Assembly: GCF_016132545.1 (NCBI RefSeq)
Contig: NZ_CP066167.1
Coordinates: forward strand, 1,949,001 to 2,013,000
Reading direction: 5' to 3'
DNA: 64,000 nucleotides
Source: Spongiibacter nanhainus
GTDB lineage: Bacteria; Pseudomonadota; Gammaproteobacteria; Pseudomonadales; Spongiibacteraceae
The translations under genes were made by a program, and so were the position numbers. Numbering within the stretch: position 1 is the stretch's first letter; each line of letters starts with the position of its first letter. Below, piece by piece: positions 19,565-48,379 of this stretch. The notes beneath the pieces were generated by a model, which ran no database searches, was not told the DNA's origin, and worked only from the letters and a program-made list of their open reading frames with translations.

Positions 19565-20334
<770 letters not shown>

Positions 20335-25011: not shown

Positions 25012-25431
25012 ATGTCTTCAAGGTCAATGGCTAAGGGTGTTTATCGGGACCGCGGAGGCTCTGTGGCTTTGCTTGCAAGCCGTGACGGAAAGGGGGGGGT
25101 AGTCTTTCCTGTTATGAGTTGCGGTCAGTCTGAGTGGGAAGGGGTGGTGGAGATCTCTGGAGTTGGTCGTTTGTGGACTTATACTGTCCAAAGGTTTAGG
25201 CCTAAGCCTCCGTTTGATGACGGGCGTTCAGATTTGGAATTTGTTCCATATGTCGTGGGTTATGTGTCGTTCGAAGATAGTGGCCTGATTGTTGAGGGCC
25301 GGATAGTTGTTGGAGATCCCCGCGAGTTAGAGATTGGTCAGGAAATGTCTATTTGCAAGGTTGTGGTGGCTAAGTCGCAGGGCGAAGACGTAGAGTTATA
25401 TGCTTTCGCGCCTCATGACGCACAAGGTTAG
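25012..25431 (+). CDS. DUF35 OB-fold protein, partner of the thiolase-like enzyme
   Basis: 139 residues. VEISGVGRLWTYTVQRFRPKPPF and FVPYVVGYVSFEDSGLIVEGRIV are characteristic of the DUF35 OB-fold that associates with thiolase-fold enzymes. In steroid side-chain degradation a DUF35 domain (of ChsH2) binds Ltp2 to form a retro-aldolase. The rubredoxin-like zinc ribbon that normally precedes the OB-fold is degenerate: only one Cys remains (PVMSCGQSEW). A G8 run lies at 25092-25099 inside the coding region. First gene of the long operon, 25 bp before the thiolase-fold gene, so the two products very probably form a complex. Confidence 0.8.
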   Translation: MSSRSMAKGVYRDRGGSVALLASRDGKGGVVFPVMSCGQSEWEGVVEISGVGRLWTYTVQRFRPKPPFDDGRSDLEFVPYVVGYVSFEDSGLIVEGRIVVGDPRELEIGQEMSICKVVVAKSQGEDVELYAFAPHDAQG

Positions 25432-25456
25432 CATAGAAATAAGCTGGGAGTTATGT

Positions 25457-26599
25457 ATGGTCGGTGTGCAGATAGTGGGTGCGGGGATTCATAAGTTTGG
25501 TCGTTCTGACGGTGTATCCGGGTTAGATATGGGGGTTGCGGCTGTTCGTTCTTCTCTGGCTGATGCTGGTATTGATTGGGAAGATGTTCAATTTGTTTTT
25601 GGTGGTTCCGCCGACTGTGGTGCTATCGATTCGGTTCTTCCTGTGCTTGGATATACAGGTATTCCGACAATTAACGTTGCAAACGGTTGCGCAACTGGGG
25701 GCTCGAGTTTGGTCTCTGCGGTAGCGGCTATTCGCTCCGGGGAATACGAGCTGGGTGTGGTGCTGGGGTTTGATAAGCATGCGCGTGGCGCGTTTAACGC
25801 AGATCCGGAATTGTTCGGCTTGCCACAGTGGTATGGGCAGGCAGGATTTATGTTAACAACTCAATTTTTTGCGATGAAGATCAAGCGGTACATGTGGGAG
25901 TACGGCATTGATGAAGAAAGTTTGGCTAGGGTAGCTGAAAAGTCGTTTATCAATGGTGCCTTGGCGGAGCATGCATGGCGGCGCACTCCGATCGGGTTCG
26001 ATGAGATCGTATCGTCTCCGATGGTGTCGGATCCACTGCGGAAGTATATGTTTTGTTCGCCCTCGGAGGGAGCTGTTGCCTTGGTGGTGGCATCTGAAAA
26101 ATATGTTAAAGAAAAAGGTTTAAGTGGGCCGCATATTAAGGGCGTTTCAATTAAGTCCAGGTTAAAGGGCTCGTTTGAGGTCTTTTCGCCATCTATGCCT
26201 TTCGATAGGGATGTCTCGCCTACTGTGCTCGCGGCCCAGGACGTGTTTGAAAAAACCTCGGTGTCTCCACGTGATATCAATATTGCACAGCTGCAGGATA
26301 CTGAGTCTGGTGCAGAAATTATGCATATGGCGGAAAATGGATTTTGTGAAGACGGTGAGCAATCGGCGATGCTAAAAAATGGCGAGACTGGCTTGCGTGG
26401 AAGGCTGCCAATTAATACTGATGGTGGATGTATTGCTTGTGGTGAGCCGATAGCGGCGTCTGGATTGCGCCAAGTTTATGAGAACTATACGCAATTAAAG
26501 GGGCGGGCTGGAAAGCGCCAAGTTGAGAGCGTTCGTCTCGCATATAGCCATGTTTACGGTGCCCCTGGGGTATCCGCTGTTTGTATCCTGGAAAAATAG
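25457..26599 (+). CDS. Thiolase-fold enzyme (SCP-x/Ltp2-like)
   Basis: 380 residues from the ATG at 25457, which has GGGAG at 6 bp; a longer frame from 25400 has no RBS and overlaps the upstream gene. The fold is that of lipid-transfer-protein/SCP-x thiolases: VQIVGAGIHKFGRSDG at the start, INVANGCATGGSSLVSAV with Cys78 in the thiolase nucleophile position, RKYMFCSPSEGAVALVVAS near 205, and a C-terminal YSHVYGAPGVSAVCIL. With a DUF35 partner it could be a thiolase or, like Ltp2, an aldolase that releases a C2/C3 unit from a CoA thioester; retention of Cys78 leaves thiolysis open. Confidence 0.85.
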   Translation: MVGVQIVGAGIHKFGRSDGVSGLDMGVAAVRSSLADAGIDWEDVQFVFGGSADCGAIDSVLPVLGYTGIPTINVANGCATGGSSLVSAVAAIRSGEYELGVVLGFDKHARGAFNADPELFGLPQWYGQAGFMLTTQFFAMKIKRYMWEYGIDEESLARVAEKSFINGALAEHAWRRTPIGFDEIVSSPMVSDPLRKYMFCSPSEGAVALVVASEKYVKEKGLSGPHIKGVSIKSRLKGSFEVFSPSMPFDRDVSPTVLAAQDVFEKTSVSPRDINIAQLQDTESGAEIMHMAENGFCEDGEQSAMLKNGETGLRGRLPINTDGGCIACGEPIAASGLRQVYENYTQLKGRAGKRQVESVRLAYSHVYGAPGVSAVCILEK

Positions 26600-26645
26600 T
26601 ACATCGTTTTAGGTGGTAATAGATTATTTAGTTAGGAGTGACAAA

Positions 26646-28043
26646 GTGGCGAATATAATAAAAGGCGTAGCAAGTAAAGTTAGTCCCTTGGTTCCGGACT
26701 TACTGGCTCATGATTCGTTTTCTAATGAGGCCCTTTCCGCGGATGGCAATTACATGCCAGAAGGCGTGAATATTGATGTGTCGAAATATATCAGTGAAGA
26801 CTTTGCTGAACTTGAGAGAGAAAAAATCTGGAAAAAATGCTGGCAGTATGCGGCGCGTGTAGAAGATATACCCAGGGTGGGGGATCGTACCGAGTATACC
26901 GTGAGTGGCTTATCCTGCTTTATTGTGCGTGGCGACGACAATGAAATTCGGGCGTATTTGAATAGTTGTCCGCACCGCGGCACCAAGCTGTGTGTTGGCT
27001 TTGCCAGTTCAGGCGAAGTTGTTTGCCCGTTTCACGGCTGGAAATGGCATTTAGACGGCAAGATTAAATGGATTCCCAGTGAGTGGGATTTCCAAAGTTG
27101 CGACAAAGACGACGCAGGGCTTGTTGAGATTAAGTGTGAGGTTTGGCAGGGCTACATATTCATTAACTTCGATGACAACGCCAAACCCTTAGATAAGTAC
27201 CTTGGTGTACTGAAGCCACACTTTGCAACACTACCTCAGCTGAACCGCGTTACGATTGCTCGTGTGAAAAAAGTCATTAAGGCGAACTGGAAAGTGGCGA
27301 TGGAAGCCTTTTTGGAGTCGTATCACACTATTGAAACACATCCGCAGATACTAAATACCTTGGCTGATGCCAGTACCAAATATGATGTGTGGGATGACGC
27401 TGTTTCCTCGGTTAGCCGCTTGTACTCACCGATGTCTGTTCCTAGCCCGCATTTGGGGGATGAAGTGGACTTGGCTGAATGCGCCAAAGAGTACGCGAAA
27501 GCCATGGAAATGCCCGGGCTAGAACATTTAAATTTTGTGCTCGATAGGAATAGTAACCTGGCGCCTCGGACCCAGGTAGCTAATTGGCGCCGGTCTGTCT
27601 TTAAAGAAGTTCTCGGGGTGAATTTAGAAAGCATGCCCGATGCTGCACTGCTGGATGCGATTCAGTACTGGATGTTTCCCAATTTTTGTCCGTGGTATGG
27701 AGAGGGTGGCCCCATTGCGTACCAATTCCTGCCAGTGAACGGCAAGACCAATGAATGTGTAATGGAAGTCAGGTTGCTAGCGCCATTGCCTGACGGTGTG
27801 CCTCTTCCTGAGGTGCCGACACAAATTGATTATCTGGACGCCTGCGACAGTTTTGCAGAGAAAGCCACTGGGTTTGGAAGCTTGGCCATGGTGTTTGATC
27901 AAGACATGATCAATATTCCGGTTATTCAGGAAGGCATAGAAAATGCTTATCATTTAAATAAATCAAAAGTGCGTCTGGCGGATTACCAAGAGCAGCGTAT
28001 AGCTTATTTTCACGAAGTGCTGGACCGGTGGGTAGCTAAATAA
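26646..28043 (+). CDS. Rieske non-heme iron oxygenase, alpha subunit
   Basis: 465 residues from the GTG at 26646, chosen because AGGAG lies 7 bp upstream; an alternative GTG at 26613 lacks an RBS. Rieske [2Fe-2S] ligands: Cys108-x-His110 (NSCPHRGTKL) and Cys127-x2-His130 (VCPFHGWKW). The catalytic domain has NWKVAMEAFLESYHTIETHP (two Fe-binding His, Glu at the electron-bridging position often held by Asp) and DQDMINIPVIQEG with the third ligand Asp. It hydroxylates the substrate using electrons from a ferredoxin, probably the Rieske protein encoded next. No beta subunit is present. Substrate unknown. Confidence 0.92.
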   Translation: MANIIKGVASKVSPLVPDLLAHDSFSNEALSADGNYMPEGVNIDVSKYISEDFAELEREKIWKKCWQYAARVEDIPRVGDRTEYTVSGLSCFIVRGDDNEIRAYLNSCPHRGTKLCVGFASSGEVVCPFHGWKWHLDGKIKWIPSEWDFQSCDKDDAGLVEIKCEVWQGYIFINFDDNAKPLDKYLGVLKPHFATLPQLNRVTIARVKKVIKANWKVAMEAFLESYHTIETHPQILNTLADASTKYDVWDDAVSSVSRLYSPMSVPSPHLGDEVDLAECAKEYAKAMEMPGLEHLNFVLDRNSNLAPRTQVANWRRSVFKEVLGVNLESMPDAALLDAIQYWMFPNFCPWYGEGGPIAYQFLPVNGKTNECVMEVRLLAPLPDGVPLPEVPTQIDYLDACDSFAEKATGFGSLAMVFDQDMINIPVIQEGIENAYHLNKSKVRLADYQEQRIAYFHEVLDRWVAK

Positions 28044-28372
28044 TGCAATTGGTAATTGAGAGTGACGGTAAGCGAGAGCTTATCGAAACGCCAGAATTAA
28101 AACCAGAAACCTCAGTTCAAATTGATGCATTCAAAAAAGATTTGTTGGTTGTAAAAGATGCGAGTGGAGAGGTCTACGCAATTGAGAATTACTGCCCACA
28201 TGCGATCCAAAAATTAGCCGATGGGGAGGTGATTGGTTCAATGATTAAATGCAAAAAACATGGTGCAGTATTCAGCTTGGTTGATGGCCGCTGTATCGGT
28301 AATGAACGAATTGGTAATCTCAATAAATATTCGGTGTCAGAAGTAGATGGCGCGATAATAATTAAACTATAG
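28043..28372 (+). CDS. Rieske-type ferredoxin
   Basis: 109 residues. The ATG overlaps the end of the oxygenase gene (TAATG). Cluster ligands are in NYCPHAIQKL and KCKKHGAVF with VDGRCIG after them, the pattern of small Rieske ferredoxins. It probably passes electrons to the oxygenase encoded immediately upstream. No ferredoxin reductase is encoded nearby. Confidence 0.9.
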   Translation: MQLVIESDGKRELIETPELKPETSVQIDAFKKDLLVVKDASGEVYAIENYCPHAIQKLADGEVIGSMIKCKKHGAVFSLVDGRCIGNERIGNLNKYSVSEVDGAIIIKL

Positions 28373-28380
28373 AGCTAGTT

Positions 28381-30360
28381 ATGAAATATACGCACGTCAA
28401 TACGCCCCTTAAGATTGGGCCTGTTGAAATCAAGAATAGAATTGTCCGTCCGGCACACGGGACATTGATTGGGCAAGGCTCCGTTAACGATAATTTAATT
28501 GCCTATCATGAGGAGCGGGCCAAGGGCGGTGTTGCCCTGTCTATTATTGAAATTATGGGGGTTCATCCCAGTTCATTAGGTGCATTAAATAGCTATGATC
28601 CCTCGCTTGAGGAGAGTTATCCCAAGCTAGTTGATGCCTGCCATATGCATGGAATGAAAGTATTCCAGCAGCTTTGGCACGGTGGCCATAACATTGCGAT
28701 GCCTTCGGTGGACGGCTCTCCGCCCTGGTCAGCATCGGCAATTCGAGGCCTACACTCTGCGCAGACTCCGACGCCAATGACGTTATCGATGATCAAGGAG
28801 ATTATCGCATCGTTTGAAGCTGGCGCCAGAAAGTGTGAAGAATGGGGCGTTGACGGCGTCGAAATCCATTGTGCGCATGGCTACTTGCCGGCCCAGTTCT
28901 TGTCGCCAGCGATAAATCAGCGCGATGATGAATACGGTGGCAGTTTAGAAAATAGAGCACGGTTTATTATAGAGCTAGTGGCAGCGGTTCGAGCGGCAGT
29001 GTCTCCGAATATCGCGGTTGGTGTGCGGGTTGCGCCGGATACTTTAGAGGGTGGTGCGGGTCTTGAGGACTATCAGTACATTGTTAAGACGTTAGAAGAA
29101 AAAAAGCTGATTGACTATGTCAATATCTCGCTTGGTAACTACCAGACATTCCCCAAAATGATCGGCGGAATGCATGAGCCGGCGGGTTATGAAATGGATA
29201 CGAGTTCGGTGATCGCTGCGTCAACCGACTTGCCAACGATAGTTGTCGGACGCTTCAGAACATTGGAAGAAGCCGATCAGCTGATCCGTTCCGGTGACGC
29301 GGATATGGTAGGGATGGTGCGTGCGTTGATCGCTGATCCCAACTTGGTGGCGAAATCGTTAGATGATCGAGCAGATGACGTTCGCCCCTGTATTGGCTGT
29401 AACCAAGGATGTGTGGCTGGAATATATAAACCCATCATGCCCGTGATGGGCTGCACGGTTAACCCAGCAGTAGGGTTGGAGAATTTTCTTTCGGAAAACC
29501 TGATTCAAGCTGCCCAGCAGACTAAGAAGGTCGTCGTTATTGGCGGTGGCCCAGCGGGGATGGAAGCGGCGAGAGTGGCGGCCTTGCGTGGTCATACAGT
29601 TTCGTTGTTCGAAGCGAATAAAGAGCTTGGGGGAAAATTGCGTTATGCGGCCCTGGCGCCGACGCGGGCAGGGATTCGTGATATAGCGGTGTGGCAAGAA
29701 GAGCAGCTCTATAAGCACGGCGTCGACGTCCATCTTAACAGTTTTGTGGAAATGGCCGATATCACTACATTAAACCCTGACATGGTAATCGTTGCTGTTG
29801 GGGCTACACCGCGTAGCGACGGTAAGCAGTTATCGAATCCTGGTGAAGAAATTACGCTAATTAATAATGCACAGCTAAAAACCAGCGTTGAGCTATTTGA
29901 AGAAGGCAAAGACTACAGCGGTAAAGATGTCACCGTGATTGATGATCTTGGAGAGTATGAGGCGATTGCCTGTGCGGAGTATTTGTTGTCGATGGGCGCG
30001 AATGTAAATTACGTCACGCGACACACCAGCTTTGCGCCTTATGCTGAATATTCATTGATGACAGAACCTGCCCTGAAGCGGCTATACGGTGAGCGTTTCA
30101 CTTTACATTTACGCAGCCGAGTAACTGGATTTGACGGCCAAAATGTAGCTGTTCTGCCAACCTATATTGACAGAGCAGAAGATGGAATGACCGTGGCAGC
30201 TGCTGAGGTTTTCTATATCTCATCTGGCACTAGCAATAGCGAATATCTGAATATCTTTAATGAAACTACTGTTGATATTAAATATATTGGAGATGCAAGA
30301 AGCAGCAGAAGCTTAGTGGAGGCTATTGCCGATGGCTATAAAAGTACAATATTTTCCTAA
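28381..30360 (+). CDS. NADH:flavin oxidoreductase / 2,4-dienoyl-CoA reductase-type (OYE family)
   Basis: 659 residues, two modules. N-terminal FMN TIM barrel: HGYLPAQFLSPAINQRDDEYG near residue 165 is the OYE/FadH signature. A [4Fe-4S] cluster motif follows (CIGCNQGC and MGCTVN near 340-360). The C-terminal module has an FAD/NAD(P) dinucleotide fold, VVVIGGGPAGMEAARVAALRG near residue 385. Enzymes with this layout reduce activated C=C bonds, such as dienoyl-CoA, or demethylate amines. In this operon it likely reduces an unsaturated ring or side-chain intermediate. It starts 8 bp after the Rieske ferredoxin and is followed by the second TonB receptor after 29 bp. Confidence 0.9.
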   Translation: MKYTHVNTPLKIGPVEIKNRIVRPAHGTLIGQGSVNDNLIAYHEERAKGGVALSIIEIMGVHPSSLGALNSYDPSLEESYPKLVDACHMHGMKVFQQLWHGGHNIAMPSVDGSPPWSASAIRGLHSAQTPTPMTLSMIKEIIASFEAGARKCEEWGVDGVEIHCAHGYLPAQFLSPAINQRDDEYGGSLENRARFIIELVAAVRAAVSPNIAVGVRVAPDTLEGGAGLEDYQYIVKTLEEKKLIDYVNISLGNYQTFPKMIGGMHEPAGYEMDTSSVIAASTDLPTIVVGRFRTLEEADQLIRSGDADMVGMVRALIADPNLVAKSLDDRADDVRPCIGCNQGCVAGIYKPIMPVMGCTVNPAVGLENFLSENLIQAAQQTKKVVVIGGGPAGMEAARVAALRGHTVSLFEANKELGGKLRYAALAPTRAGIRDIAVWQEEQLYKHGVDVHLNSFVEMADITTLNPDMVIVAVGATPRSDGKQLSNPGEEITLINNAQLKTSVELFEEGKDYSGKDVTVIDDLGEYEAIACAEYLLSMGANVNYVTRHTSFAPYAEYSLMTEPALKRLYGERFTLHLRSRVTGFDGQNVAVLPTYIDRAEDGMTVAAAEVFYISSGTSNSEYLNIFNETTVDIKYIGDARSSRSLVEAIADGYKSTIFS

Positions 30361-30389
30361 TAACATAATGAGTTTAGAGGTTGTTAGAC

Positions 30390-32711
30390 ATGGTGATTTT
30401 CCGATCGAAGCTAATGTTGCTGCTATTTCTGTGGGGTGGAATAGGTTTACATAGCATTTTCGCATTTGGTAATGAGAAAACAAAGTCCAACCGGATGATA
30501 GAAGAGGTTGTTGTTGTTGCACAAAAACGTGAAGAGAAGATGCAAGACATCCCCATTTCGATTCAAGCATTTTCCTCAGATAGGCTTGACGCAATGGGGA
30601 TTACCTCTATTCCTGATTTGCAGTTGGTAGCGCCGGGTTTGAACTACACTGAAACATCTGGTTTTTCTATTATTTATATTCGAGGTGTAGGTTCAGATAC
30701 ATTTTTGATGGGTGATCCCAACGTCGCAACTTACTTGGATGGCGTCTATTTGCCCTTCGCTTTTGGTCAGAGTCAGGAGTTATTTGGTATAGAACGAATA
30801 GAGGTACTTAAGGGACCGCAAGGCACATTATTTGGCCGAGGCGCTAATGGTGGTGCAATCAATATCATGACCAAGTCGCCTTCGTTAACTGAGCCAGAGG
30901 TCCAGCTTGAGGTGGGCTACGATTCGTTAAATACCACGCAAACAAAAGCCTATTTCTCCTACCCATTAGCGGACACGTTAGCGATGTCTATCTCGACGGC
31001 CTATAAGTCAGGGGATCATTGGTATGATGAAGAGTCAACCGGGGGGGGGGAGAAGTTACCTCAAGTCTCATCACAAGCCATGCGCGTAAAGTTGTTATGG
31101 ACTCCAGTTGATGAGTTGGAATTGGGCTTTTCTTATATGCAATCGCTGTCGCAAGGTACGTCCTCTGGTTTACAAGGGAATTCCGAGCCGAGCCTGTTAG
31201 CGCAAGCTTTGGGTATAACGCCACAAAAGGGGTACACCATTGATAATGATGTCCCTGTATTTTTGCATTCAAATAACAAAATTATGAGTGTTAATGGAGT
31301 GTGGGCCGGAGAGCAGCACGACTATAAGTTTCTAGTGAGCCGCCAAAACGGATCACCATCTGGCTTGTTTATTGATTTCGATGGTGCGCCGGAGGGGATT
31401 GCCTATTTCGGTACAGCAGATGGATCTATAAATGAGGTTGATACTGCTGAACTGCAGATGGTATCGACGCCTGGAAATTGGGCGGGTAGTAACGTTCGTT
31501 ACAATCTCGGATATTATTTCGTGAATTGGACGTCTGCGCTTGATCCGGTTTTCTTAGGTTTACTTGCCGTAGACCTCTCTACAGGTGTTAAAAATTCCTC
31601 TCTTAGTCTGCCTGCTGGTTTTGTTGGGTTATTAGACTCCCTCCTAGAGCCATTATTAGGCTTTGGTACGCCGTCGGGTGCCGTTCGATTGGTGGGTAAG
31701 AATACGCTGGAATCCCACGCATTATACGCCCAAACATCAATTGACTTTCTTAATGATTTTACATTTACAGTCGGCGTTCGGTACCAAGAAGAAACAAGAA
31801 CGCTTGATGAATCCAGTTCTTCGCTTGGCGACTCGAATATAGAGCCTGTTGTATTTATACAAAAATATGAAGATATAGAGGATGAGGTGAAGAGCACTAA
31901 ACCAAAGATAGGTTTAGAGTATCGACCACCGTTCCTGGATGAAGGGATGATATACGCAAGTTGGCAGCAATCGATTAAAGGTACCCAGTTTAACTTGATT
32001 AATATTTATGACCCACCAGAAATAGTTTTGCCTGAGGAGATGGATGCCATTGAACTTGGTATAAAAACATCGCCCTTTGGTGCGGGATCAGTATTTAATT
32101 TTGCCTACTTTAAATACGACATTGAAAACCTCCAGGTTCAATTTGTCTCTTTGCTTCAAGGCGGGGCGGTTACGCAAGAGAATGCGGGGGGGGCTGCGAT
32201 AGAGGGTTTTGAATTTGAGTTTCAAACGTTGCTTTTCCCTAGTGTAGTCGACAATTTGGTCCTAATTGCTAACGGTACCATGCTGACCACTAAGGAATAT
32301 ACAGAATATCTTAATGGTAGCGGATTCGATCCAAATACAGGCTTACTATCGACCGGCAACGATTTTTCAGGGAATGAGATTGCTCGGGCGCCTGATACTA
32401 CCGGGACAGTGGGAATATCAAAAACTACTGAAGTGCCCGGTGGAAGCTTAGAAATCGGCGCAGATTATTACTATAACTCTGGATTCTATTATCTTGCACA
32501 GAATTCGGAAAAAAGCGTAGAGGATGCCTATACGGTATTGAATGCGAGGGTCAGCTATTTTTATCAGCCAGCAAATTTACGTATCACGCTATATGGAAGG
32601 AACCTTCAAGGAACAGAATACAATTATGGCCGATTTCATGTGGATTTTGGTACGGCAGATTATAAGGCACCACGGGATATCGTTGGTTTGAAAGTAAACT
32701 GGCAGTTTTAA
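30390..32711 (+). CDS. TonB-dependent outer-membrane receptor 2
   Basis: 773 residues; the ATG at 30390 has AGAGG 9 bp upstream, better than a TTG nine bases earlier. Signal peptide (LMLLLFLWGGIGLHSIFAFG), TonB-box region RMIEEVVVVAQKREEKMQD, plug with GTLFGRGANGGAIN, barrel ending VNWQF. It is paralogous to the receptor at 22421; the C-terminal half is almost identical, the N-terminal half is not. A G10 run at 31041-31050 lies in frame (codons for Thr-Gly-Gly-Gly-Glu), where receptor 1 has mixed codons; another G8 is at 32186-32193. It is embedded inside the catabolic operon, so import is coupled to breakdown. Confidence 0.92.
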   Translation: MVIFRSKLMLLLFLWGGIGLHSIFAFGNEKTKSNRMIEEVVVVAQKREEKMQDIPISIQAFSSDRLDAMGITSIPDLQLVAPGLNYTETSGFSIIYIRGVGSDTFLMGDPNVATYLDGVYLPFAFGQSQELFGIERIEVLKGPQGTLFGRGANGGAINIMTKSPSLTEPEVQLEVGYDSLNTTQTKAYFSYPLADTLAMSISTAYKSGDHWYDEESTGGGEKLPQVSSQAMRVKLLWTPVDELELGFSYMQSLSQGTSSGLQGNSEPSLLAQALGITPQKGYTIDNDVPVFLHSNNKIMSVNGVWAGEQHDYKFLVSRQNGSPSGLFIDFDGAPEGIAYFGTADGSINEVDTAELQMVSTPGNWAGSNVRYNLGYYFVNWTSALDPVFLGLLAVDLSTGVKNSSLSLPAGFVGLLDSLLEPLLGFGTPSGAVRLVGKNTLESHALYAQTSIDFLNDFTFTVGVRYQEETRTLDESSSSLGDSNIEPVVFIQKYEDIEDEVKSTKPKIGLEYRPPFLDEGMIYASWQQSIKGTQFNLINIYDPPEIVLPEEMDAIELGIKTSPFGAGSVFNFAYFKYDIENLQVQFVSLLQGGAVTQENAGGAAIEGFEFEFQTLLFPSVVDNLVLIANGTMLTTKEYTEYLNGSGFDPNTGLLSTGNDFSGNEIARAPDTTGTVGISKTTEVPGGSLEIGADYYYNSGFYYLAQNSEKSVEDAYTVLNARVSYFYQPANLRITLYGRNLQGTEYNYGRFHVDFGTADYKAPRDIVGLKVNWQF
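31041..31050 (+). repeat. G10 homopolymer inside TonB receptor 2
   Basis: Ten consecutive G within coding sequence in an AT-rich gene, about 217 codons after the start. Gain or loss of one G would truncate the receptor. Confidence 0.85.
31615..32702 (+). repeat. Near-identical tract shared with receptor 1
   Basis: Counterpart of 23643-24730; the similarity rises abruptly at the codons for GFVGLLDSLLEPLLGFGTPS and continues to the stop. Confidence 0.8.
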
Positions 32712-32729
32712 TACATCGGGAGCTATAAA

Positions 32730-33329: not shown

Positions 33330-33373
33330 AAGTCAATATTTATATAAATATATCGTAATTCAGGAGGTTTTTA

Positions 33374-34624: not shown

Positions 34625-34648
34625 TATTAGTCAAAGTAGGGTAACAGA

Positions 34649-36064: not shown

Positions 36065-36076
36065 AAGGGGGTTGAA

Positions 36077-36838
36077 ATGATAGACGATCTAGCAGGTAAG
36101 GTAGCCGTAGTCACTGGTGCTGCACAAGGCATTGGGTTGACCGTTGCCAAAGAACTTCTCGCTAAAGGAGTGAAGGTATATCTAGCCGATATTGAAGACG
36201 GAGACTTCGGTGGTGTCGCAGAAAAATTCGGAGCAGACAAAGCAATTACTGTAAAGTTGGACGTTACGATTCCTGAGAGTTGGTCTGCGTTGCATGACAC
36301 TATTGAGGCTGAATGTGATCGCATAGATATTTTAGTAAATAATGCAGGCATTAGTCCAGCGGGTAGCATAGAAACTACTGATTTTGAATTGTGGCGTAAG
36401 GTTATCAGCGTTAACTTAGACAGTGTTTTTCTTGGTTGTAATACTCTGCTTCCGCTCCTTAAAAAGTCGTCAAGCGCGTCTATAATTAACTTGTCTTCTC
36501 TGATGGGTATTAAATCAGACGCTAATTTAGCGGCATACAGCGCGTCAAAGGGCGGCGTTAGACTTCTAACAAAGTCAATCGCTCTTCATGGTGCGCAATT
36601 TAAAATTCGCTGTAACTCTGTGCATCCCGGTGGCGTTCGGACACGCATGTTAGACGAGTTTATTAAGACATTTGGCGACGAAGAAGAGGCTATTAAACTT
36701 ATTACTGCAAACGTGCCACTAGCCGCTGTTGGCGAGCCAGAAGATATTTCTAATATGATACTGTTCTTGGCATCTGACGCATCTAAGTGGATTACCGGCG
36801 CTGAAATGTGTGTGGACGGGGGGGCGACGCTAGTATGA
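36077..36838 (+). CDS. Short-chain dehydrogenase/reductase
   Basis: 253 residues, classical SDR. Cofactor motif VVTGAAQGIGLTVAKEL, NNAGIS near residue 90, catalytic Ser in NLSSLMG and YSASKGG (Tyr-x3-Lys) near 155, and HPGGVRTRM after it. An acidic residue after the second strand (YLADIEDG) suggests NAD(H) preference. A GGGGG-rich RBS precedes the ATG. There is a G7 run near the 3' end (36818-36824). The stop overlaps the start of the acyl-CoA ligase by 4 bp. Probably oxidises a hydroxyl formed by the P450, Rieske oxygenase or hydration. Confidence 0.92.
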   Translation: MIDDLAGKVAVVTGAAQGIGLTVAKELLAKGVKVYLADIEDGDFGGVAEKFGADKAITVKLDVTIPESWSALHDTIEAECDRIDILVNNAGISPAGSIETTDFELWRKVISVNLDSVFLGCNTLLPLLKKSSSASIINLSSLMGIKSDANLAAYSASKGGVRLLTKSIALHGAQFKIRCNSVHPGGVRTRMLDEFIKTFGDEEEAIKLITANVPLAAVGEPEDISNMILFLASDASKWITGAEMCVDGGATLV

Positions 36839-38502: not shown

Positions 38503-38510
38503 GGTGATTG

Positions 38511-38708
38511 ATGGTAGTCGTAAAGTTAGATAAAGAGTTGTGTTGTTCTTATCAATCTTGCATGAGCGAATGCCCAGAAGTTTTTGGAACTGATGATATA
38601 GGCGTAGTTAGACTATTGATGACTGAAATTCCAGAGAACTATCGTGAAAAAGTCGAATTAGCAGCATCCGTTTGTCCACAAGGCGTAATAACAATAGAGA
38701 GAGCGTAA
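38511..38708 (+). CDS. Small Fe-S ferredoxin, likely P450 redox partner
   Basis: 65 residues from the ATG at 38511. Cys spacing LCCSYQSCMSECPEVF near the N-terminus and VCPQGVITIE near the C-terminus is that of single-cluster [3Fe-4S]/[4Fe-4S] ferredoxins found beside bacterial P450s. It sits 8 bp after the CoA ligase and 2 bp before the SCP2 gene. Electron donor to the P450 at 33374 is the simplest role. Confidence 0.88.
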   Translation: MVVVKLDKELCCSYQSCMSECPEVFGTDDIGVVRLLMTEIPENYREKVELAASVCPQGVITIERA

Positions 38709-38710
38709 AC

Positions 38711-39025
38711 ATGGCAGATATCGATATTATTTATAAACTTCCCAGTGTTTTTCGGGGAGAGTCACAAAAAGACCTAGATTGCGTCATATTTTTCAATATG
38801 TCGCGTCCTATGACACTTATTATCAAGAATGGAGAAGCGGTTGTTGAAGAGGGGGAGCCAGAGAAGCCAACGCTCACATTGGCGATGAAAGATGATTTCC
38901 TGATCACACTGTTGAGCGGCAAAGTGGCGGGTATGACTGCGGTTATGACTGGTAAGTTGAAATTTAAGGGAAATATGGCTCTTGCTCAGAAATTATCTAA
39001 ATTGTTTGACTTAGAAAAACTTTAA
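38711..39025 (+). CDS. Stand-alone SCP2 sterol-carrier-domain protein
   Basis: 104 residues from the ATG at 38711. Single SCP2 fold: FFNMSRPMTLIIKNGEAVVEEG, LTLAMKDDFLITLLSGKVAGM and LKFKGNMALAQKLSKLF. SCP2 domains bind sterols, fatty acyl chains or their CoA esters. Here it may shuttle a poorly soluble CoA thioester between the ligase, dehydrogenases and thiolase-fold enzyme. Its presence favours a steroid- or terpenoid-like substrate. Confidence 0.9.
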   Translation: MADIDIIYKLPSVFRGESQKDLDCVIFFNMSRPMTLIIKNGEAVVEEGEPEKPTLTLAMKDDFLITLLSGKVAGMTAVMTGKLKFKGNMALAQKLSKLFDLEKL

Positions 39026-39068
39026 ATTTAGATAATTAAAAATTCGTTTAGCAGATTTGGAGAGTCAA

Positions 39069-40031
39069 ATGGTGAAGTTAGAAAATAGCATTTTGTTATC
39101 AATCTACGAGAAAATGACTCGTATAAAAATGAACGATGAGCGATTTATTGCGGAAATGAGCGCCGGTCGTATCACGATGCCTTACTATTCGGCTCGCGGG
39201 CAGGAGTGTATTCCTGCATCTATTTCTGTACTCCTTAATTCAGATGATTATTTGGTCACGATATATCGAGGCATTCACGATATGCTGGCTAAAGGCGTTC
39301 CAGCCAAGTTAATTTGGGCAGAACTGGCCGGGCGGGAGACCGGCGCTTGTAAAGGTAAGGGCGGGCCGATGCACATTACGCATCCTGCGACAGGGTGTAT
39401 GTTAACAACGGGTATCGTGGGTGCTGGGTTGCCGATTGCAACGGGTTTGGCGCTTTCTTCTAAAATGAGGGGAGATCAGCGTGTAACCGTGACTAATTTT
39501 GGTGATGGCGCCTCAAATATCGGCGCATTTCATGAATCGCTAAATTTAGCCTCGGTGTGGAAATTGCCGGTTATATTTGTCTGCCAGAATAACCGGTATG
39601 CCGAGCACACTAATTTTGCCAAAGGTACTGCTTGTGATTCGGTGGCTAGTCGAGCTTCATCGTATAATATGCCAGGTGTTCAAGTTGACGGTAATGATCC
39701 CCAGGCTGTTTATGCTGCTGCAAAAGCGGCGATTGAGCGAGCCCGAGGTGGCGACGGGCCGACTCTTATAGAAGCGATGACGTTCCGATTTAACGGCCAT
39801 ACTATGGGCGATGCGGGCGGATACATCCCTGAAGAAGAATATAAAACGGCGAAAGAAAACGACCCTTATCCTATATTTCGTGCATTCCTTGAGGAAGCTA
39901 GCGTAGCGACAGCTGAAGCTCTTAATGAGTTGGACGAGGCGATTTCGCTCGAATTAGAAGAAGCAGTCAGGTTCGCCTACGATAGTCCATTGGTTGACGC
40001 GAGCGATGTTCTTAAGGATGTTTTTGCATAA
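39069..40031 (+). CDS. ThDP-dependent dehydrogenase E1 alpha (acetoin/2-oxoacid type)
   Basis: 320 residues from the ATG at 39069, with GGAG upstream. Motifs: YYSARGQECIPASISVLL near residue 38, YRGIHDMLAKG, GPMHITHPATG near 100, the ThDP motif GDGASNIGAFHESLN...CQNN near 145-175 and FRFNGHTMGDAGGY near 240. It matches E1 alpha of acetoin and branched-chain/pyruvate dehydrogenases. Together with the E1 beta and split E2 genes that follow, it should decarboxylate or cleave an alpha-keto or ketol compound and pass the acyl group to lipoate. Confidence 0.92.
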   Translation: MVKLENSILLSIYEKMTRIKMNDERFIAEMSAGRITMPYYSARGQECIPASISVLLNSDDYLVTIYRGIHDMLAKGVPAKLIWAELAGRETGACKGKGGPMHITHPATGCMLTTGIVGAGLPIATGLALSSKMRGDQRVTVTNFGDGASNIGAFHESLNLASVWKLPVIFVCQNNRYAEHTNFAKGTACDSVASRASSYNMPGVQVDGNDPQAVYAAAKAAIERARGGDGPTLIEAMTFRFNGHTMGDAGGYIPEEEYKTAKENDPYPIFRAFLEEASVATAEALNELDEAISLELEEAVRFAYDSPLVDASDVLKDVFA

Positions 40032-40048
40032 AACGGGGAGAGAATACT

Positions 40049-41050
40049 GTGCCTAAGAATGAAAATATTATTTCAGCAGTTAATAGAGCTTTGTCATATG
40101 CACTTGAGAACGACAAAGATGTGTTTTTAATGGGTGAAGATATTGCTGACGAAGAAGGCGGCGGTGTTTTAAAAGTTACCCACGGCTTGTCTTCGAAATA
40201 CGGGGCTGACCGCGTTCTGTCTACTCCAATTTCGGAGATGGCATTTACTGGCGCTGGCGTTGGCGCTGCCATTGCCGGCATGAAGCCGGTAGTAGAAATC
40301 ATGCTAATGAATTTTACTGCAGTATGTATGGATCAGATTACAAATCACGCCGCGAAAATAAGATATATGTCTGGCGGCCAGACTAGTGTCCCAATGGTTA
40401 TTAGGACCATGACTGGTTCAGGTTTCCAGACTGGTGGTCAACATTCAGATTTTCTGGAAGCGTGGTTTTGCCATACCCCTGGCCTAAAAGTTGTCATGCC
40501 GTCTAACGCTAAAGACGCATATGGTTTGCTATTGAGTGCCATCAATGATCCTGACCCGGTTATCTACATCGAACATACCGCATCATACTGGAATGAGGGT
40601 GAGGCTGCTGAAGATGGAGAGTTAATTCCTATAGGTAAAGCAAATATTGTTAAAGAAGGTAATGATATAACCTTAATCGGATATAGCCGCTCAATGATGG
40701 AAATATCGATGGTTGCTTCAAAATTACAAGGAGAAGGGATTTCCTGTGAGGTAATTGATTTGCGTACAGTTTCTCCGATTGATTATGACACGGTGGTAAA
40801 ATCCGTCAAAAAAACAGGGCGTGCGCTGATTGCCCATGAGGCGGTTAAGTCTTTCGGTGTGGGTGCTGAGGTTTCCGCGACAATACAGGAGCGAGCGTTT
40901 AAATATTTAAAAGCGCCTGTCGCACGAGTGGCTAGTAAGGATACGCCGGTTCCATTTGCAAAAAATCTCGAGACTGAATTTACCTATGCTCTTTCAGATA
41001 TAGAGAATGCCGTACTAAGTTGTATGAATTATGTGGAGAGCGATAAATGA
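40049..41050 (+). CDS. ThDP-dependent dehydrogenase E1 beta
   Basis: 333 residues, GTG start with GGGGAGAG upstream. FLMGEDIADEEGGGVLKVTHGL at the N-terminus, RVLSTPISEMAFTGAGVGAA, GFQTGGQHSDFLEAW, and the C-terminal transketolase domain (IDLRTVSPIDYDTVVKSVKKTGR) are those of PdhB/AcoB. Encoded 17 bp after E1 alpha and overlapping the lipoyl protein by 4 bp. Forms the alpha2-beta2 E1 enzyme. Confidence 0.92.
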   Translation: MPKNENIISAVNRALSYALENDKDVFLMGEDIADEEGGGVLKVTHGLSSKYGADRVLSTPISEMAFTGAGVGAAIAGMKPVVEIMLMNFTAVCMDQITNHAAKIRYMSGGQTSVPMVIRTMTGSGFQTGGQHSDFLEAWFCHTPGLKVVMPSNAKDAYGLLLSAINDPDPVIYIEHTASYWNEGEAAEDGELIPIGKANIVKEGNDITLIGYSRSMMEISMVASKLQGEGISCEVIDLRTVSPIDYDTVVKSVKKTGRALIAHEAVKSFGVGAEVSATIQERAFKYLKAPVARVASKDTPVPFAKNLETEFTYALSDIENAVLSCMNYVESDK

Positions 41051-41277
41051 GTGTTGATATTATTATTCCTAAAATTGGGTTCGCTTCGAGTGATGGGACG
41101 CTAGTAAAATGGCACGCTGAGGATGGTGCTCAGGTAAATGAAGGTGATCCACTCTATGATTTGGAGACTGATAAATCGATTCAAGAGATCTTTTCCCCGG
41201 CAACTGGAACTCTAAAAATTATTGGTACCGAAGGTGAGGAATATAAGGTGGGCGAAATTGTCGGTGTTGTGGAATGA
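41047..41277 (+). CDS. Stand-alone lipoyl-domain protein (N-terminal part of a split E2)
   Basis: 76 residues, a single biotinyl/lipoyl domain: VDIIIPKIGFASSDGTLVKW and YDLETDKSIQEIFSP, with the lipoylated Lys at residue 43 in the ETDKS turn. In ordinary E2 proteins this domain is fused to a subunit-binding and a catalytic domain; here the gene ends after GEIVGVVE with a stop overlapping the next ATG (ATGA). It is a separate swinging-arm carrier, like the H protein of glycine cleavage in arrangement. Confidence 0.9.
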   Translation: MSVDIIIPKIGFASSDGTLVKWHAEDGAQVNEGDPLYDLETDKSIQEIFSPATGTLKIIGTEGEEYKVGEIVGVVE

Positions 41278-42023
41278 GTTTCTTGTTAGAAAATATAGAA
41301 AACTCTGCTGATTGGCCATTAGAGGATAATGAAAAATATGGTGCTAGCGAGTTAGTCGAGCTATCTCGGATCCAGAGCGTAGTTGGAAAAAACCTGCATA
41401 GAAACTGGTTAGCGATTCCTCATGTTACACACAATGAACACATCGTTGTTGATAGCTTCTTTGATGCCAAAACGGACGGGGTGCTTAGTGGTGTTTCTTT
41501 TTTGGCGTCGATAGTGAAGGCCACCGCGGTAACGCTGAAAGAATTTCCAAGGTTCAATGCCTCTATCGATGCAAAGGGAAGAGAGCTTTCATTAAAAGAA
41601 TTCGTCAACATTGGTGTGGCAGTTGATACAGAATATGGTTTATTCGTTCCCGTTGTGCAACACTGCGATACGAAAAGCATGGTAGACATATCAGAAGATA
41701 TATCAATAATGGCTGGCTTGGCGAAGGAAAAAAAACTGTCGTTTGAAAAGATGCAAGGCGGTACGTTTACCATTAGTTCGCTAGGCAGTATTGGTGGTGT
41801 TGGCTTCACGCCGATAATCAATGCTCCGCAAGTTGCGATTTTAGGCGCTTCATCCGTTTTTGATCGGCCGGTAAGACTACCCGATGACACGCTAGGTTGG
41901 GAGAAATGTTTGCCTGTATCATTGTCCTACGATCATCGGATTATCAATGGCGCTGATGCCGCCCGTTTTTGTAAGAGACTGGAGCATAATTTCAAACGGC
42001 TACTAGGTCGTGGGGAAAGCTAA
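41274..42023 (+). CDS. E2 catalytic-domain acyltransferase (split from its lipoyl domain)
   Basis: 249 residues, only the CAT-like catalytic core of 2-oxoacid dehydrogenase E2: VELSRIQSVVGKNLHRNWLAIPHVTHNEH at the start, GVAVDTEYGLFVPVV, FTISSLGSIGGVGFTPIINAPQVAILG, and the catalytic LSYDHRIINGADAARF near residue 222 (His and Asp present). No lipoyl domain and no recognisable E1/E3-binding domain precede the core. It would transfer the acyl group from the separately encoded lipoyl protein to CoA. No E3 gene is in the window. Confidence 0.9.
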   Translation: MSFLLENIENSADWPLEDNEKYGASELVELSRIQSVVGKNLHRNWLAIPHVTHNEHIVVDSFFDAKTDGVLSGVSFLASIVKATAVTLKEFPRFNASIDAKGRELSLKEFVNIGVAVDTEYGLFVPVVQHCDTKSMVDISEDISIMAGLAKEKKLSFEKMQGGTFTISSLGSIGGVGFTPIINAPQVAILGASSVFDRPVRLPDDTLGWEKCLPVSLSYDHRIINGADAARFCKRLEHNFKRLLGRGES

Positions 42024-42026
42024 TAG

Positions 42027-43223
42027 ATGAAAATTGATTTAAGTACCTGTGATCTTAGTACGTTTCGAGCGCAAATTGAGAGCTTTGTATCTGGCAATCT
42101 ATCCTCGTCACTGCAGCAAGCGGGCCGACTTTCAACAAGTGTTTTCTGCGATTTCCGTGCAATGATGGAGTGGCAGAAAATATTACATAGCAACGGCATG
42201 GCTGCACCCTCATGGCCAATTGAGTTTGGTGGGTGTGGTTGGGACCCTGAGCGAATTCTTGTTTTCAGGGAAGTGTGTGCGTCCCTGGATGCACCTCAGC
42301 TCACTTCAATGGGTATCCAGATGTTGGGTCCGATTTTAATGAGCTATGGCACTGATGCTCAAAAATCTGAGCTGCTTCCTAGAATTTTGAGCGGCGAAGA
42401 TTTCTGGTGCCAGGGATATTCAGAACCATCTGCGGGTTCGGATTTAGGGTCCCTTTCGACGAAGGCTGAGCGAAAGGGCGATTTTTATGTCGTTAACGGG
42501 TCAAAAATTTGGACAAGCTTAGCCCATCACTCGAATAAGATTTTCTGCCTGGTTAGAACGGCGAAGGAAAGAAGCCCGAAGAATAGTATCAGCTTCTTAC
42601 TTATTGATTTAGATACTCCTGGGGTCGAGGTCCGACCAATTGTGTCGTTAGATGGGGCTGTTGAACAATGCGAAGTATTTTTTACTGATGTGAAGGTGCC
42701 AGTGCAGAACATCGTCGGCGAAGAAAACGACGGATGGAAGGTCGCACTTTCTTTACTGGAACATGAGCGTGGCGGCGCGAGTTACTATGTCGGTTTGCAG
42801 CGTAAACTTGAACTGATAAAAGAATTCAGTGAGTCTTACTTGGTTGGCAATATCGTTGCGGAAAGATGCAAGGATGAACTTTTAGATATCGAGGCGGACG
42901 TGTTGTCACTGACCTATTTAGAGCGGGGAATCGCGAAGTCATCAGAAGGAGATAGCCGGATCGGCGCCCTCAGTTCACTCACTAAATTAATAGGCACTGA
43001 ATTGGGTCAAAAGTTAGATGAAATTTCTCTTTCCCTTAGAGGTCGAGACGTATTAGTCGTGATGGAACATGAGCTGGATCCTTACTATATTGGTGAGCGT
43101 TTGGAGTGTGACAAAGACGCTGCAGCATTTAATTCTTACATCAACAATAGAGCGTCGACCATATATGGGGGGACGGCCGAAATACAGCGTAACATCATCG
43201 CTAAGAAAATATTAATGTTGTAA
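42027..43223 (+). CDS. Acyl-CoA dehydrogenase, subunit 1 of a probable heteromer
   Basis: 398 residues. WPIEFGGCGWDPERILVFREV, the FAD/substrate segment CQGYSEPSAGSDLGSLSTKAER near residue 130, VNGSKIWTSLAHHSNKIFCLVRT, and the C-terminal ASTIYGGTAEIQRNIIAKKIL. It resembles FadE-type dehydrogenases of steroid side-chain degradation. The canonical YEGT catalytic motif is YGGT here, so the base must be elsewhere. It lies 3 bp after the E2 gene and 19 bp before a second, shorter dehydrogenase; steroid degraders use such adjacent pairs as alpha2-beta2 heterotetramers. Confidence 0.9.
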   Translation: MKIDLSTCDLSTFRAQIESFVSGNLSSSLQQAGRLSTSVFCDFRAMMEWQKILHSNGMAAPSWPIEFGGCGWDPERILVFREVCASLDAPQLTSMGIQMLGPILMSYGTDAQKSELLPRILSGEDFWCQGYSEPSAGSDLGSLSTKAERKGDFYVVNGSKIWTSLAHHSNKIFCLVRTAKERSPKNSISFLLIDLDTPGVEVRPIVSLDGAVEQCEVFFTDVKVPVQNIVGEENDGWKVALSLLEHERGGASYYVGLQRKLELIKEFSESYLVGNIVAERCKDELLDIEADVLSLTYLERGIAKSSEGDSRIGALSSLTKLIGTELGQKLDEISLSLRGRDVLVVMEHELDPYYIGERLECDKDAAAFNSYINNRASTIYGGTAEIQRNIIAKKILML

Positions 43224-43242
43224 GACAATAGAGAGCTATATA

Positions 43243-44337
43243 ATGAATTCAGAAGAGCGTGATCTGCTATTCGAGAGTGTAAATAAGTACCTTACCCATA
43301 GTTATAATTATTTCGATTTTCGCTTGGATGGAAGAGCTTCTAGCGAAAGCGTAATGAAAATGTATAAGGAAACCTGCGATTTAGGTTGGTCGGCTTTTTT
43401 GTTTTCTGAAGAAGTTGGCGGTTTCGGAGGGGCAGCAGTTGACATTGCTGACCTGTTTCACAAGTTTGGTAGCCATAGGGTAGTGACACCTTATTTGGAG
43501 AGCCAGATTACTGCGGGGGCTATTCTTTCTGGCATTGGGGGAAAGGGTAGTGCGGTATTAGGCGAGCTGATGGCGGGAAATATAACACTTTGTGTTTTAG
43601 GTAGCTCTGATCGTTATTCCGATAGCGGTGCTATCGTTTTAGATCTCGATAATTTAGGCGATCTTGTTTGTGATTATGGCGCTGTACCGTGGGCGCCTGT
43701 CGTCGATAAGTTGCTTTTGTTTGCCTCGAATAAAGGCGAAAACACTCTGTTGTTGGTTGATAGGCAAAGCTCTTTTGTTTCTGTGGAGCGTCGCATCGGT
43801 GTCGATGGGTCGCTCGTTGGTAGGGTGACGATTAATGGATTACGTAGAGAAAGCTGTGAAATTCTTGCCGAAGGAAGCGCGGTATCCGACATTGTGAAAA
43901 TTGCGAGTCTTAAAACGAGCATTGCACTCTGCGCAGAAGCTGTGGGTGCGATGGAGTCGTTGCTTCGCCAAACGGTGGAGTACACGAAAACAAGAAAGCA
44001 GTTTGGTCAGCCAATTTCTAGTTTTCAAGTCCTTCAGCACATGATGGCGAATATGTTTATTGCGCAGACGACCTCTTCTGAAATGTTGAAAGGAATTGCA
44101 TCAGAAATTTCCACCGATTCAGATTACCTTGCGTACGAAAGAGAGATCATGTTACTGAAGCATAAAATCAACAAAGAATCTAAGTTAGTCCGGCATTCAG
44201 CAGTGCAGTGTCATGGCGGCATTGCGACCACAGATGAACTGATGATCGGTCATTATTTAAAGCGGTTAGTGGTGATCGATAATTATTTTGGTGGGCCGCA
44301 TGTAGATATGAATCGAATTAACCGTGAAGCGGCTTGA
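43243..44337 (+). CDS. Acyl-CoA dehydrogenase, subunit 2 of a probable heteromer
   Basis: 364 residues, shorter and more divergent than its neighbour. FLFSEEVGGFGGAAVDIADLF at the N-terminus, YTKTRKQFGQPISSFQVLQHMMA near residue 250 and VQCHGGIATTDELMIGHYLKRL near the end are the FAD-contacting motifs kept in FadE29/ChsE2-like subunits. The central substrate region with S/T-G-SD is not evident, which fits a partner subunit rather than a self-sufficient enzyme. Last gene of the long operon. Confidence 0.88.
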   Translation: MNSEERDLLFESVNKYLTHSYNYFDFRLDGRASSESVMKMYKETCDLGWSAFLFSEEVGGFGGAAVDIADLFHKFGSHRVVTPYLESQITAGAILSGIGGKGSAVLGELMAGNITLCVLGSSDRYSDSGAIVLDLDNLGDLVCDYGAVPWAPVVDKLLLFASNKGENTLLLVDRQSSFVSVERRIGVDGSLVGRVTINGLRRESCEILAEGSAVSDIVKIASLKTSIALCAEAVGAMESLLRQTVEYTKTRKQFGQPISSFQVLQHMMANMFIAQTTSSEMLKGIASEISTDSDYLAYEREIMLLKHKINKESKLVRHSAVQCHGGIATTDELMIGHYLKRLVVIDNYFGGPHVDMNRINREAA

Positions 44338-45815: not shown

Positions 45816-45924
45816 ATTTACATCATGATTATCGCTGTGCAGCGTATAGTAACAAGTAATGAGTAACATAATTACATGGCAGTATCAGACCTATTGGAAA
45901 TTGTTTTCTGCCTTTGGGATATGT

Positions 45925-46977: not shown

Positions 46978-47055
46978 GCGGCCAGTTTCTAGAGCGTGCG
47001 GAGGAGTTTTCAATACTGCCTATTAAATATGATATCATTGCTGTCCCACAAATAT
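46978..47055 (+). other. Spacer between the adaptor gene and the IS4 relic
   Basis: Short AT-rich sequence containing GTTTTCAATACTGCCTATTAAA, with CTACTATGAATATTTG-type symmetry near 47050; no gene. Confidence 0.25.
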
Positions 47056-48230: not shown

Positions 48231-48379
48231 AAGGCTTGAATCTTCCTGTTATTACAGTGTTTGTTCGAAATTTCATCGTAACAAGCAGTTGAGGTTCAAG
48301 CCTTTTTTATGTCTGATTTATTAGGCAGCAATGTTATAAAGTATAAATATAAAACGTCTAAACGTATTTAGGTGTATTC

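Follow-up and report, generated by a model that had tools for sequence, protein, structure and literature searches.

Positions 25012 to 44337 of the window, a 64,000-nucleotide stretch of the 4.08 Mb single-contig genome of Spongiibacter nanhainus (contig NZ_CP066167.1), are filled by nineteen co-directional open reading frames (ORFs) on the + strand, which form a real, conserved, accessory catabolic operon. Among bacterial clusters for the catabolism of polycyclic lipids it represents a variant, marked by an unusual split unit composed of the alpha and beta subunits of a thiamine pyrophosphate (TPP)-dependent E1 dehydrogenase, a free-standing lipoyl protein, and a free-standing E2 acyltransferase core. 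On balance, it is probably a horizontally spread unit for the catabolism of a bulky alicyclic lipid, most likely steroid- or terpenoid-like, that carries or acquires a carboxyl group. The gene content and order, the family membership and active-site residues of the products, and the association of E1 and free lipoyl genes with Rieske oxygenases are the observations from which we infer the substrate, the order of the steps, and every reaction of the pathway.

The operon encodes E1 alpha, E1 beta, a lipoyl domain with the DK motif, and an E2 core, which are the families of acetoin and pyruvate dehydrogenase complexes. A preliminary description of this DNA had listed an E1/E2 complex of acetoin type. 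The families are indeed present, but the lipoyl domain and E2 core are not on one chain; separate genes encode a 76-amino-acid lipoyl protein and a 249-amino-acid catalytic core. The acetoin label could not be kept as a firm one. Among the curated family models, E1 beta exceeds the cut-off for the pyruvate dehydrogenase subfamily alone; E1 alpha, the lipoyl protein, and E2 pass no cut-off among the models listed, and the lipoyl protein matches the acetoin model weakly (61.8 vs 307 bits). The operon also differs from acetoin and pyruvate complexes in having no E3 gene and in its E1 beta, which lies in a clade apart from the sampled full-E2 clusters. In an E1 beta tree of 58 rows, one side of a branch (support 99/95) holds 38 rows labelled as free-lipoyl and 2 without a nearby lipoyl hit. 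On the other side are 12 of the 13 full-E2 rows together with 5 that gave no lipoyl hit, and the thirteenth full-E2 row (L301) forms a long branch outside both groups. The tree indicates that E1 beta belongs to a distinct lineage linked with a free lipoyl protein of 74–78 amino acids, here together with a free E2 core.

Across Alpha-, Beta-, and Gammaproteobacteria, 19 free-standing lipoyl proteins are 74–78 amino acids long, with start codons chosen by script, and carry a (D/E)K(S/T) site. Of 397 genomes drawn from the phylum, 17 gave lipoyl matches; the frames are 76–82 codons long in the host and in G185, 162–163 in G643 and G515, and at least 267 in the rest. Within the order to which Sphingopyxis belongs, matches at 1e-24 occur in 28 of 297 genomes. 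The arrangement E1 alpha–E1 beta–lipoyl–E2 core is found on plasmids of Paraburkholderia sp. PGU19, P. sprentiae, and Diaphorobacter, and Rieske oxygenase–E1 alpha–E1 beta–lipoyl without E2 on a plasmid of Azospirillum B510. All eight aligned free E2 cores carry H-R-x-I-N-G, and both full-length E2 proteins carry H-R-x-I-D-G. Asn at this position is known in Azotobacter pyruvate dehydrogenase. The host has a second split set of E1 alpha–E1 beta–lipoyl–Rieske oxygenase (G000:C1 1406853-1410541, L171), with a free 246-amino-acid E2 core about 20 kb away (1385620-1386360, L228). Other Zhongshania genomes (G001 and G016; L222–L224) show the order Rieske oxygenase–FAD protein–E1 alpha–E1 beta–lipoyl; a separate E2 core is also present in L222 and L224.

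The E1/free-lipoyl lineage is associated with Rieske oxygenases. Twenty lipoyl loci (19 from the list of 29 places in the order of Sphingopyxis, and one in G185) were compared with 20 control stretches; related loci among those surveyed are not independent. E1 alpha and E1 beta were each found at 16 of the 20 loci (1 of 20 controls) and a Rieske oxygenase, within the same 20 kb as the lipoyl gene, at 12 (no control). The two acyl-CoA dehydrogenases (ACADs) were found at 11 and 5 loci (1 and 0 controls), the short-chain dehydrogenase (SDR) at 14 (3), the CoA ligase at 7 (1), P450 at 4 (0), the TonB receptor at 6 (3), the old yellow enzyme (OYE) at 2 (0), and DUF35 at 2 (0). E2-core matches of any chain length occurred at 2 loci (0 controls), and SCP2 at none of either set. 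One control (L301) carries its own E1/lipoyl set with a long lipoyl frame. At four surveyed loci (L279, L280, L282, and L285), an E1 gene was not seen in the fetched stretch. Twelve further free-lipoyl loci outside the survey (L171, L175–L178, L181, and L222–L227) gave a Rieske oxygenase match in seven.

The ORF list bears out the preliminary count of nineteen co-directional genes. Its description of close spacing and 4 bp overlaps also stands, with a maximum gap of 44 bp rather than 46 bp. Listed ORFs are 3–44 bp apart, and the gap between the single-cluster ferredoxin and SCP2 genes is 2 bp when the corrected SCP2 start is used. ATGA overlaps join SDR and CoA ligase (ATG at 36835), E1 beta and lipoyl, and lipoyl and E2; the Rieske oxygenase and Rieske ferredoxin genes overlap by 1 bp. 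The starts of the thiolase-fold (25457), CoA ligase (36835), and SCP2 (38711) genes are probable corrections. A Pfam cut-off is reached by 18 of the 19 products, the exception being the small outer-membrane barrel (24.1 vs 28.7 bits), whose structure prediction failed (pLDDT 36). These families support the proposal of one catabolic operon with genes for import, oxidation, CoA activation, and C–C cleavage. Promoter-like and terminator-like sites between 24740 and 44700 are near chance (25 vs 32.7 and 24 vs 17.5 in shuffled sequence).

The operon recurs in a second genome listed in the same genus. Among 145 genomes, that is, the host and 144 others, the Rieske oxygenase was found at 89% identity in G003 alone, where the match was scored with one internal stop and a 465-amino-acid ORF spans most of it; the next best match was at most 40%. 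A 45,982-base contig of G003 carries all nineteen genes in identical order at 73–96% identity, followed by the same RND gene pair, so the gene order is not due to chance. This contig matches JAGPVP010000030.1 (94%) from the Zhongshania metagenome-assembled genome Lab_640_Crude_bin.4. Since one of 144 other genomes has a Rieske oxygenase near 90%, the operon looks patchy within the genus. Four genomes of the host's order (G004, G008, G049, and G086, the first two from the host's genus) carry DUF35–thiolase genes at 54–58% and a Rieske oxygenase at 36–38% identity beside E1 alpha–E1 beta, accompanied by a full-length E2 and, judged by open frames only, an E3-like ORF. The SCP2 protein was rejected as an operon marker. 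It has matches at 1e-10 in 100 of the 341 genomes of the order, counting the host, and all but the host's own gene are 29–42% identical to it. Insertion sequence remnants flank the operon on both sides (15206-16057, 20260-20376, 45203-45397, and 53539-55089), comprising a Mutator transposase, an ALIL pseudoknot with transposase-type helix-turn-helix ORFs, a DDE_3 fragment below cut-off, and an IS66 transposase. These remnants, together with the lower GC content of the operon (45.7% vs 49.4% for the window), fit a horizontal gain.

The uniqueness implied earlier does not hold, as a largely syntenic cluster was found in sphingomonads when syntenic clusters were searched for. A search of 13 genomes with the FAD protein gave five with one match each at E < 1e-60. 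Four of the five, including Sphingopyxis bauzanensis, Sphingomonas sp. ID1715, and relatives, carry OYE–P450–FAD protein–SDR–CoA ligase–TonB receptor–Rieske oxygenase–E1 alpha–E1 beta–lipoyl–DUF35–thiolase, and the first five of these genes follow one another as they do in the operon. In the fifth (G349), E1 alpha, E1 beta, and lipoyl genes were not seen in its right half, read in locus L093. Identity of the shared core to the operon is 34–62% (OYE 46–47%, P450 48–52%, FAD protein 57–58%, SDR 51–54%, CoA ligase 49–51%, Rieske 34–41%, E1 alpha 53–55%, E1 beta 58–61%, lipoyl 43–48%, DUF35 36–41%, and thiolase-fold 59–62%). The sphingomonad cluster differs in its TonB receptor (28–29%), and SCP2, both ferredoxins, the small barrel, and the E2 core were unmatched in the fetched stretches at 1e-5. 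The Sphingopyxis cluster has a TetR gene at its end, an enoyl-CoA hydratase nearby, and further ACADs. A wider scan took the best 80 of 532 confirmed thiolase-fold relatives, mostly from Sphingomonadales and other Alphaproteobacteria; many of these loci end at contig ends, and DUF35 was found in 70, a Rieske oxygenase in 42, and E1 beta in 22. The open-licence literature searched held no description of the sphingomonad cluster, and searches there for Zhongshania or for acyloin-type ring cleavage gave nothing relevant. In the portions of that literature covered, including part of PMC12882949, the operon itself is not described either, and the view that it is unlike described clusters stands to that extent; subscription journals could hold a description. 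A 2021 review (PMC8399759, in excerpts) describes as so far unknown how the bile-acid degrader Sphingobium Chol11 and other Sphingomonadaceae degrade the side chain.

The paired ACAD subunits are related to solved enzymes that we take to be steroid heterotetramers. The best solved relatives of the larger subunit are Tcur3483 and then 4x28; the second subunit ranks 4x28 first and Tcur3481 fourth at weak scores (E 3e-11 and 3e-9). On this point the earlier view of the pair as steroid-type is supported. The ERYIGGG segment of the FAD protein aligns with CYPGAG and FYPGAG of relatives of the 3-ketosteroid dehydrogenase (KSTD) type, and it retains the Tyr of the C-terminal Y-x-G-x-G motif, which is presumably functional in KSTD. 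In the P. sprentiae and Azospirillum plasmid clusters, which combine E1 alpha–E1 beta–lipoyl with a Rieske oxygenase, the FAD gene scores above the cut-off for 3-ketosteroid-delta1-dehydrogenase (924 and 915 vs 789 bits). In the Zhongshania clusters L222 and L224 it is below this value, at 741 bits in L222.

The thiolase-fold enzyme has unfamiliar active-site residues. Excerpts of one source (PMC12329534) give the steroid aldolase residues as YDHF with a second Tyr in TcLtp2 and YDCY in CtSal, and the excerpted 2021 review states that Sal1 and Sal2 lack the N-terminal thiolase Cys. In an alignment of the window protein with 27 homologues picked from the best 80 loci, the Y-D-H/C-F position is Q-D-T-x in all 28 (Q-D-T-E in the window protein), GHP is replaced by GEP in all 28, and the N-terminal Cys (Cys78) is retained in all 28. 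Comparison proteins behaved as expected, with YDHF in a host paralogue within the region 2890001-2910000 and YDAF without Cys in IpfD. The operon pair resembles the Ltp2-ChsH2 and Sal-Shy steroid aldolases (6ok1 and 9myr, both among the Foldseek matches) in its thiolase fold and adjacent DUF35 gene. It differs in the replaced Tyr motif, the retained Cys, and the lack of a fused or adjacent MaoC hydratase, the DUF35 protein having 139 amino acids and one Pfam match. A standard Ltp2 step was thus rejected, and with it the earlier use of an Ltp2-like pair as a hallmark. By sequence and predicted fold (pLDDT 82), the closest solved structures are SCP2-thiolases (6hrv and 6hsj) and the benzoylsuccinyl-CoA thiolase BbsB of BbsAB (7pxp), with Ltp2-ChsH2 from rank 19 in Foldseek. 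These share the Cys, but both of their His residues are replaced in the operon enzyme (HDxF His by Gln and GHP His by Glu). The residues suggest that Cys-based acyl transfer is more likely than retro-aldol cleavage.

The ibuprofen cluster ipfABDEF (pIBU218) was also compared; the part of its source consulted (PMC9195938) likewise places a Rieske oxygenase, a thiolase-fold enzyme, a DUF35-type protein, and a CoA ligase together. The Rieske, thiolase-fold, and ligase proteins are 24–30% identical to those of the operon. The two DUF35 proteins do not match each other at 1e-3, the ipf cluster has a Rieske beta subunit, and the annotation of the 49 kb fetched from pIBU218 shows no E1 or lipoyl gene. 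The aligned Rieske proteins beside E1 carry E-(S/G)-Y-H, compared with D-G-Y-H in IpfA. An ibuprofen-type oxygenation and retro-aldol route by homology was rejected, given the aldolase type of IpfD and the low identities.

MaoC, KshA_C, and extradiol dioxygenase families were not found among the Pfam matches of the nineteen genes, in agreement with the preliminary description. The absence of KshA and Hsa genes had been presented as a novelty. The canonical 9,10-seco pathway (KshA, HsaA, and HsaC) is, however, represented elsewhere on the chromosome, so the absence is not remarkable, and its use as a sign of a wholly new ring pathway was rejected. A KshA_C match over the Pfam cut-off lies at 2339892-2340497, beside an HsaC-like dioxygenase (295.7 bits) and an HsaA-like protein (372.5 bits); because both miss their equivalog cut-offs (450 each), this locus at about 2.338-2.340 Mb is called 9,10-seco-like. 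Within the genus, 16 of 18 genomes have KshA_C, and the host itself probably degrades steroids. At G000:C1 297514-301183 there is another KshA_C match, roughly 2 kb away from another HsaC/BphC-like dioxygenase.

A sequence of steps can be proposed from these families. The TonB receptor and small barrel would bring the compound across the outer membrane, and the P450 with its ferredoxin would oxidize an unactivated carbon. The SDR may form a ring ketone, which the FAD enzyme would desaturate and the OYE could reduce. Activation of the acid would fall to the CoA ligase, and its hydrophobic ester may be carried by SCP2; the paired ACAD would form an enoyl-CoA, and the Rieske oxygenase would introduce a hydroxyl group. 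Two C–C cuts yielding acyl-CoA products are proposed, one by the thiolase-fold/DUF35 pair and one by the unit of E1 alpha/beta, free lipoyl protein, and free E2 core; a steroid nucleus could then pass to the 9,10-seco-type ring pathway encoded elsewhere. Acetoin dehydrogenase offers an analogy for CoA-dependent cleavage by an E1. By this analogy, the likeliest step for the E1 unit would be the CoA-dependent cleavage of an alpha-hydroxyketone or alpha-diketone that the Rieske enzyme has produced. A broader and more tentative proposal is that these genes form a recurring machine for opening rings or chains of polycyclic lipids. In it, a Rieske oxygenase would create an alpha-hydroxyketone or diketone beside a ring ketone, and TPP-dependent E1 alpha/beta and a free lipoyl protein, whether or not a free E2 core is present, would cut this to acyl-CoA, replacing extradiol or Baeyer-Villiger cleavage; the thiolase-fold enzyme (Cys, Q-D-T-E, and GEP) would then be a third catalytic type of DUF35-partnered enzymes.

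Several observations weigh against the favoured reading of the operon. No hydratase linking the ACAD product to a beta-hydroxy ester and, by Pfam, no E3 gene is present among the nineteen genes. The four sphingomonad clusters with E1 and lipoyl genes have no adjacent E2 core, and the shortest E2-matching frame in these genomes is 388 codons, so acyl transfer in them is unexplained; this frame search covered ten genomes, three of them otherwise unrelated to the question. A Rieske oxygenase was not seen at 8 of the 20 surveyed loci, nor in the fetched stretch at 5 of the 12 further ones (L175, L177, L178, L226, and the 7-kb L227). KSTD-type genes occur at 4 of the 20 surveyed loci and thiolase-fold genes at 3 (no control for either). 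The FAD, OYE, P450, CoA ligase, and SDR proteins are from promiscuous superfamilies, and the FAD protein, earlier called KstD-type, reaches no KSTD cut-off (199 vs 789 bits, PRK12844). Finally, several of the high-scoring curated models represent cyclohexanecarboxylate or pimelate enzymes rather than steroid enzymes.

These models would fit a pathway for a smaller alicyclic acid (a cyclohexane-type or naphthenic acid, or a monocyclic terpenoid) in place of a steroid or large terpenoid. The NCBIfam high scorers, all below cut-off, include cyclohexanecarboxylate-CoA ligase (373 bits, the best model for the ligase), the large and small subunits of pimeloyl-CoA dehydrogenase, and trans-4-hydroxycyclohexanecarboxylate dehydrogenase, and the metagenome-assembled genome with the same operon bears the word Crude in its name. 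The affinity of the ACAD pair to presumed steroid heterotetramers speaks against such a substrate, SCP2 and the TonB receptor suggest a large hydrophobic one, and some E1/lipoyl relatives share a cluster with KSTDs; a smaller acid is accordingly an unlikely substrate, though the best placed of the alternatives. Somewhat less probable is a steroid side-chain operon of the known igr-like kind, in which a P450 starts the pathway, a steroid ACAD follows, Ltp2/DUF35 removes a C3 side chain by retro-aldol cleavage, and a hydratase acts in trans. The joint presence of P450, an ACAD pair near 4x28 and Tcur3481/3483, DUF35, and SCP2 in a probable steroid degrader would suit it. The residues of the thiolase-fold enzyme do not, the nineteen genes lack a MaoC domain, the host has a separate YDHF-type homologue, and the classical route leaves the Rieske and E1/lipoyl genes unexplained. 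A last alternative is that the operon modifies or detoxifies a complex lipid that the cell does not use for carbon. This would suit the RND adaptor and pump downstream, retained in G003, but is very improbable for a catabolic set in which a CoA ligase and a thiolase-fold enzyme stand beside two ACADs and an E1/E2 unit.

The RND adaptor and pump lie at 45859-51652 and are 81% and 90% identical to those beside the operon in G003; they may export intermediates. A second TonB receptor precedes the operon (Table 1). The DNA of the last half of the two receptor genes is 90–99% identical and that of a middle stretch 65–69%, a pattern such as might be left by gene conversion. The receptor that precedes the operon here is found in G003 on the opposite strand, about 9 kb ahead of the operon.

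Table 1. Genes of the operon and the neighbouring receptor gene (window coordinates)
Feature	Coordinates	Strand	Basis
DUF35 / OB_ChsH2_C protein, 139 aa, putative partner of the thiolase-fold enzyme	25012..25431	+	PF01796, 48.8 bits, over cut-off
Thiolase-fold enzyme, 380 aa (ORF listed from 25400); Cys78, Gln280-Asp-Thr-Glu, Gly-Glu330-Pro	25457..26599	+	Pfam, motifs, structure model
Rieske oxygenase alpha subunit, distantly GbcA/carnitine-monooxygenase-like; Glu in E-S-Y-H motif	26613..28043	+	Pfam, family models, alignment
Rieske-type ferredoxin	28043..28372	+	PF00355
OYE-type ene-reductase, 659 aa, 2,4-dienoyl-CoA reductase/BaiCD-like superfamily	28381..30360	+	Pfam, family models
TonB-dependent receptor	30381..32711	+	PF00593, PF07715
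Small outer-membrane beta-barrel, 199 aa, weak assignment	32730..33329	+	PF13505, 24.1 bits (cut-off 28.7)
Cytochrome P450	33374..34624	+	PF00067; PDB relatives including CYP267B1 and CYP125MRCA
FAD_binding_2 flavoprotein, 471 aa, flavocytochrome c / ketosteroid-dehydrogenase superfamily	34649..36064	+	Pfam, family models, residue comparison
SDR	36077..36838	+	Pfam
Acyl-CoA ligase (ORF listed from 36808; ATG 36835 overlaps SDR stop)	36835..38502	+	PF00501
Small single-cluster ferredoxin, 4Fe-4S-type family	38508..38708	+	PF13459
SCP2 sterol-carrier domain protein (ORF listed from 38672)	38711..39025	+	PF02036
E1 alpha, TPP-dependent dehydrogenase	39057..40031	+	PF00676
E1 beta	40049..41050	+	PF02779, PF02780; tree
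Free-standing lipoyl protein, 76 aa, motif ETDKS	41047..41277	+	PF00364
Free-standing E2 acyltransferase core, 249 aa, no lipoyl domain, H-R-I-I-N-G motif	41274..42023	+	PF00198 only
ACAD, larger of the pair	42027..43223	+	Nearest PDB entries Tcur3483 (6wy8/6wy9) and 4x28
ACAD-like second member; C-terminal Pfam domain alone scores	43243..44337	+	Pfam, PDB comparison
Second TonB-dependent receptor, paralogue of the operon receptor, outside the operon, possibly uptake-related	22421..24739	+	90.5% protein identity, 747 aa

The operon is a compact and probably single-transcript example of a cluster type that it shares with sphingomonads, in a host that carries 9,10-seco-type genes. It points to two enzymes, namely, a split 2-oxoacid dehydrogenase with a free lipoyl carrier that is tied to Rieske oxygenases, and a thiolase-fold/DUF35 enzyme with unfamiliar active-site residues.

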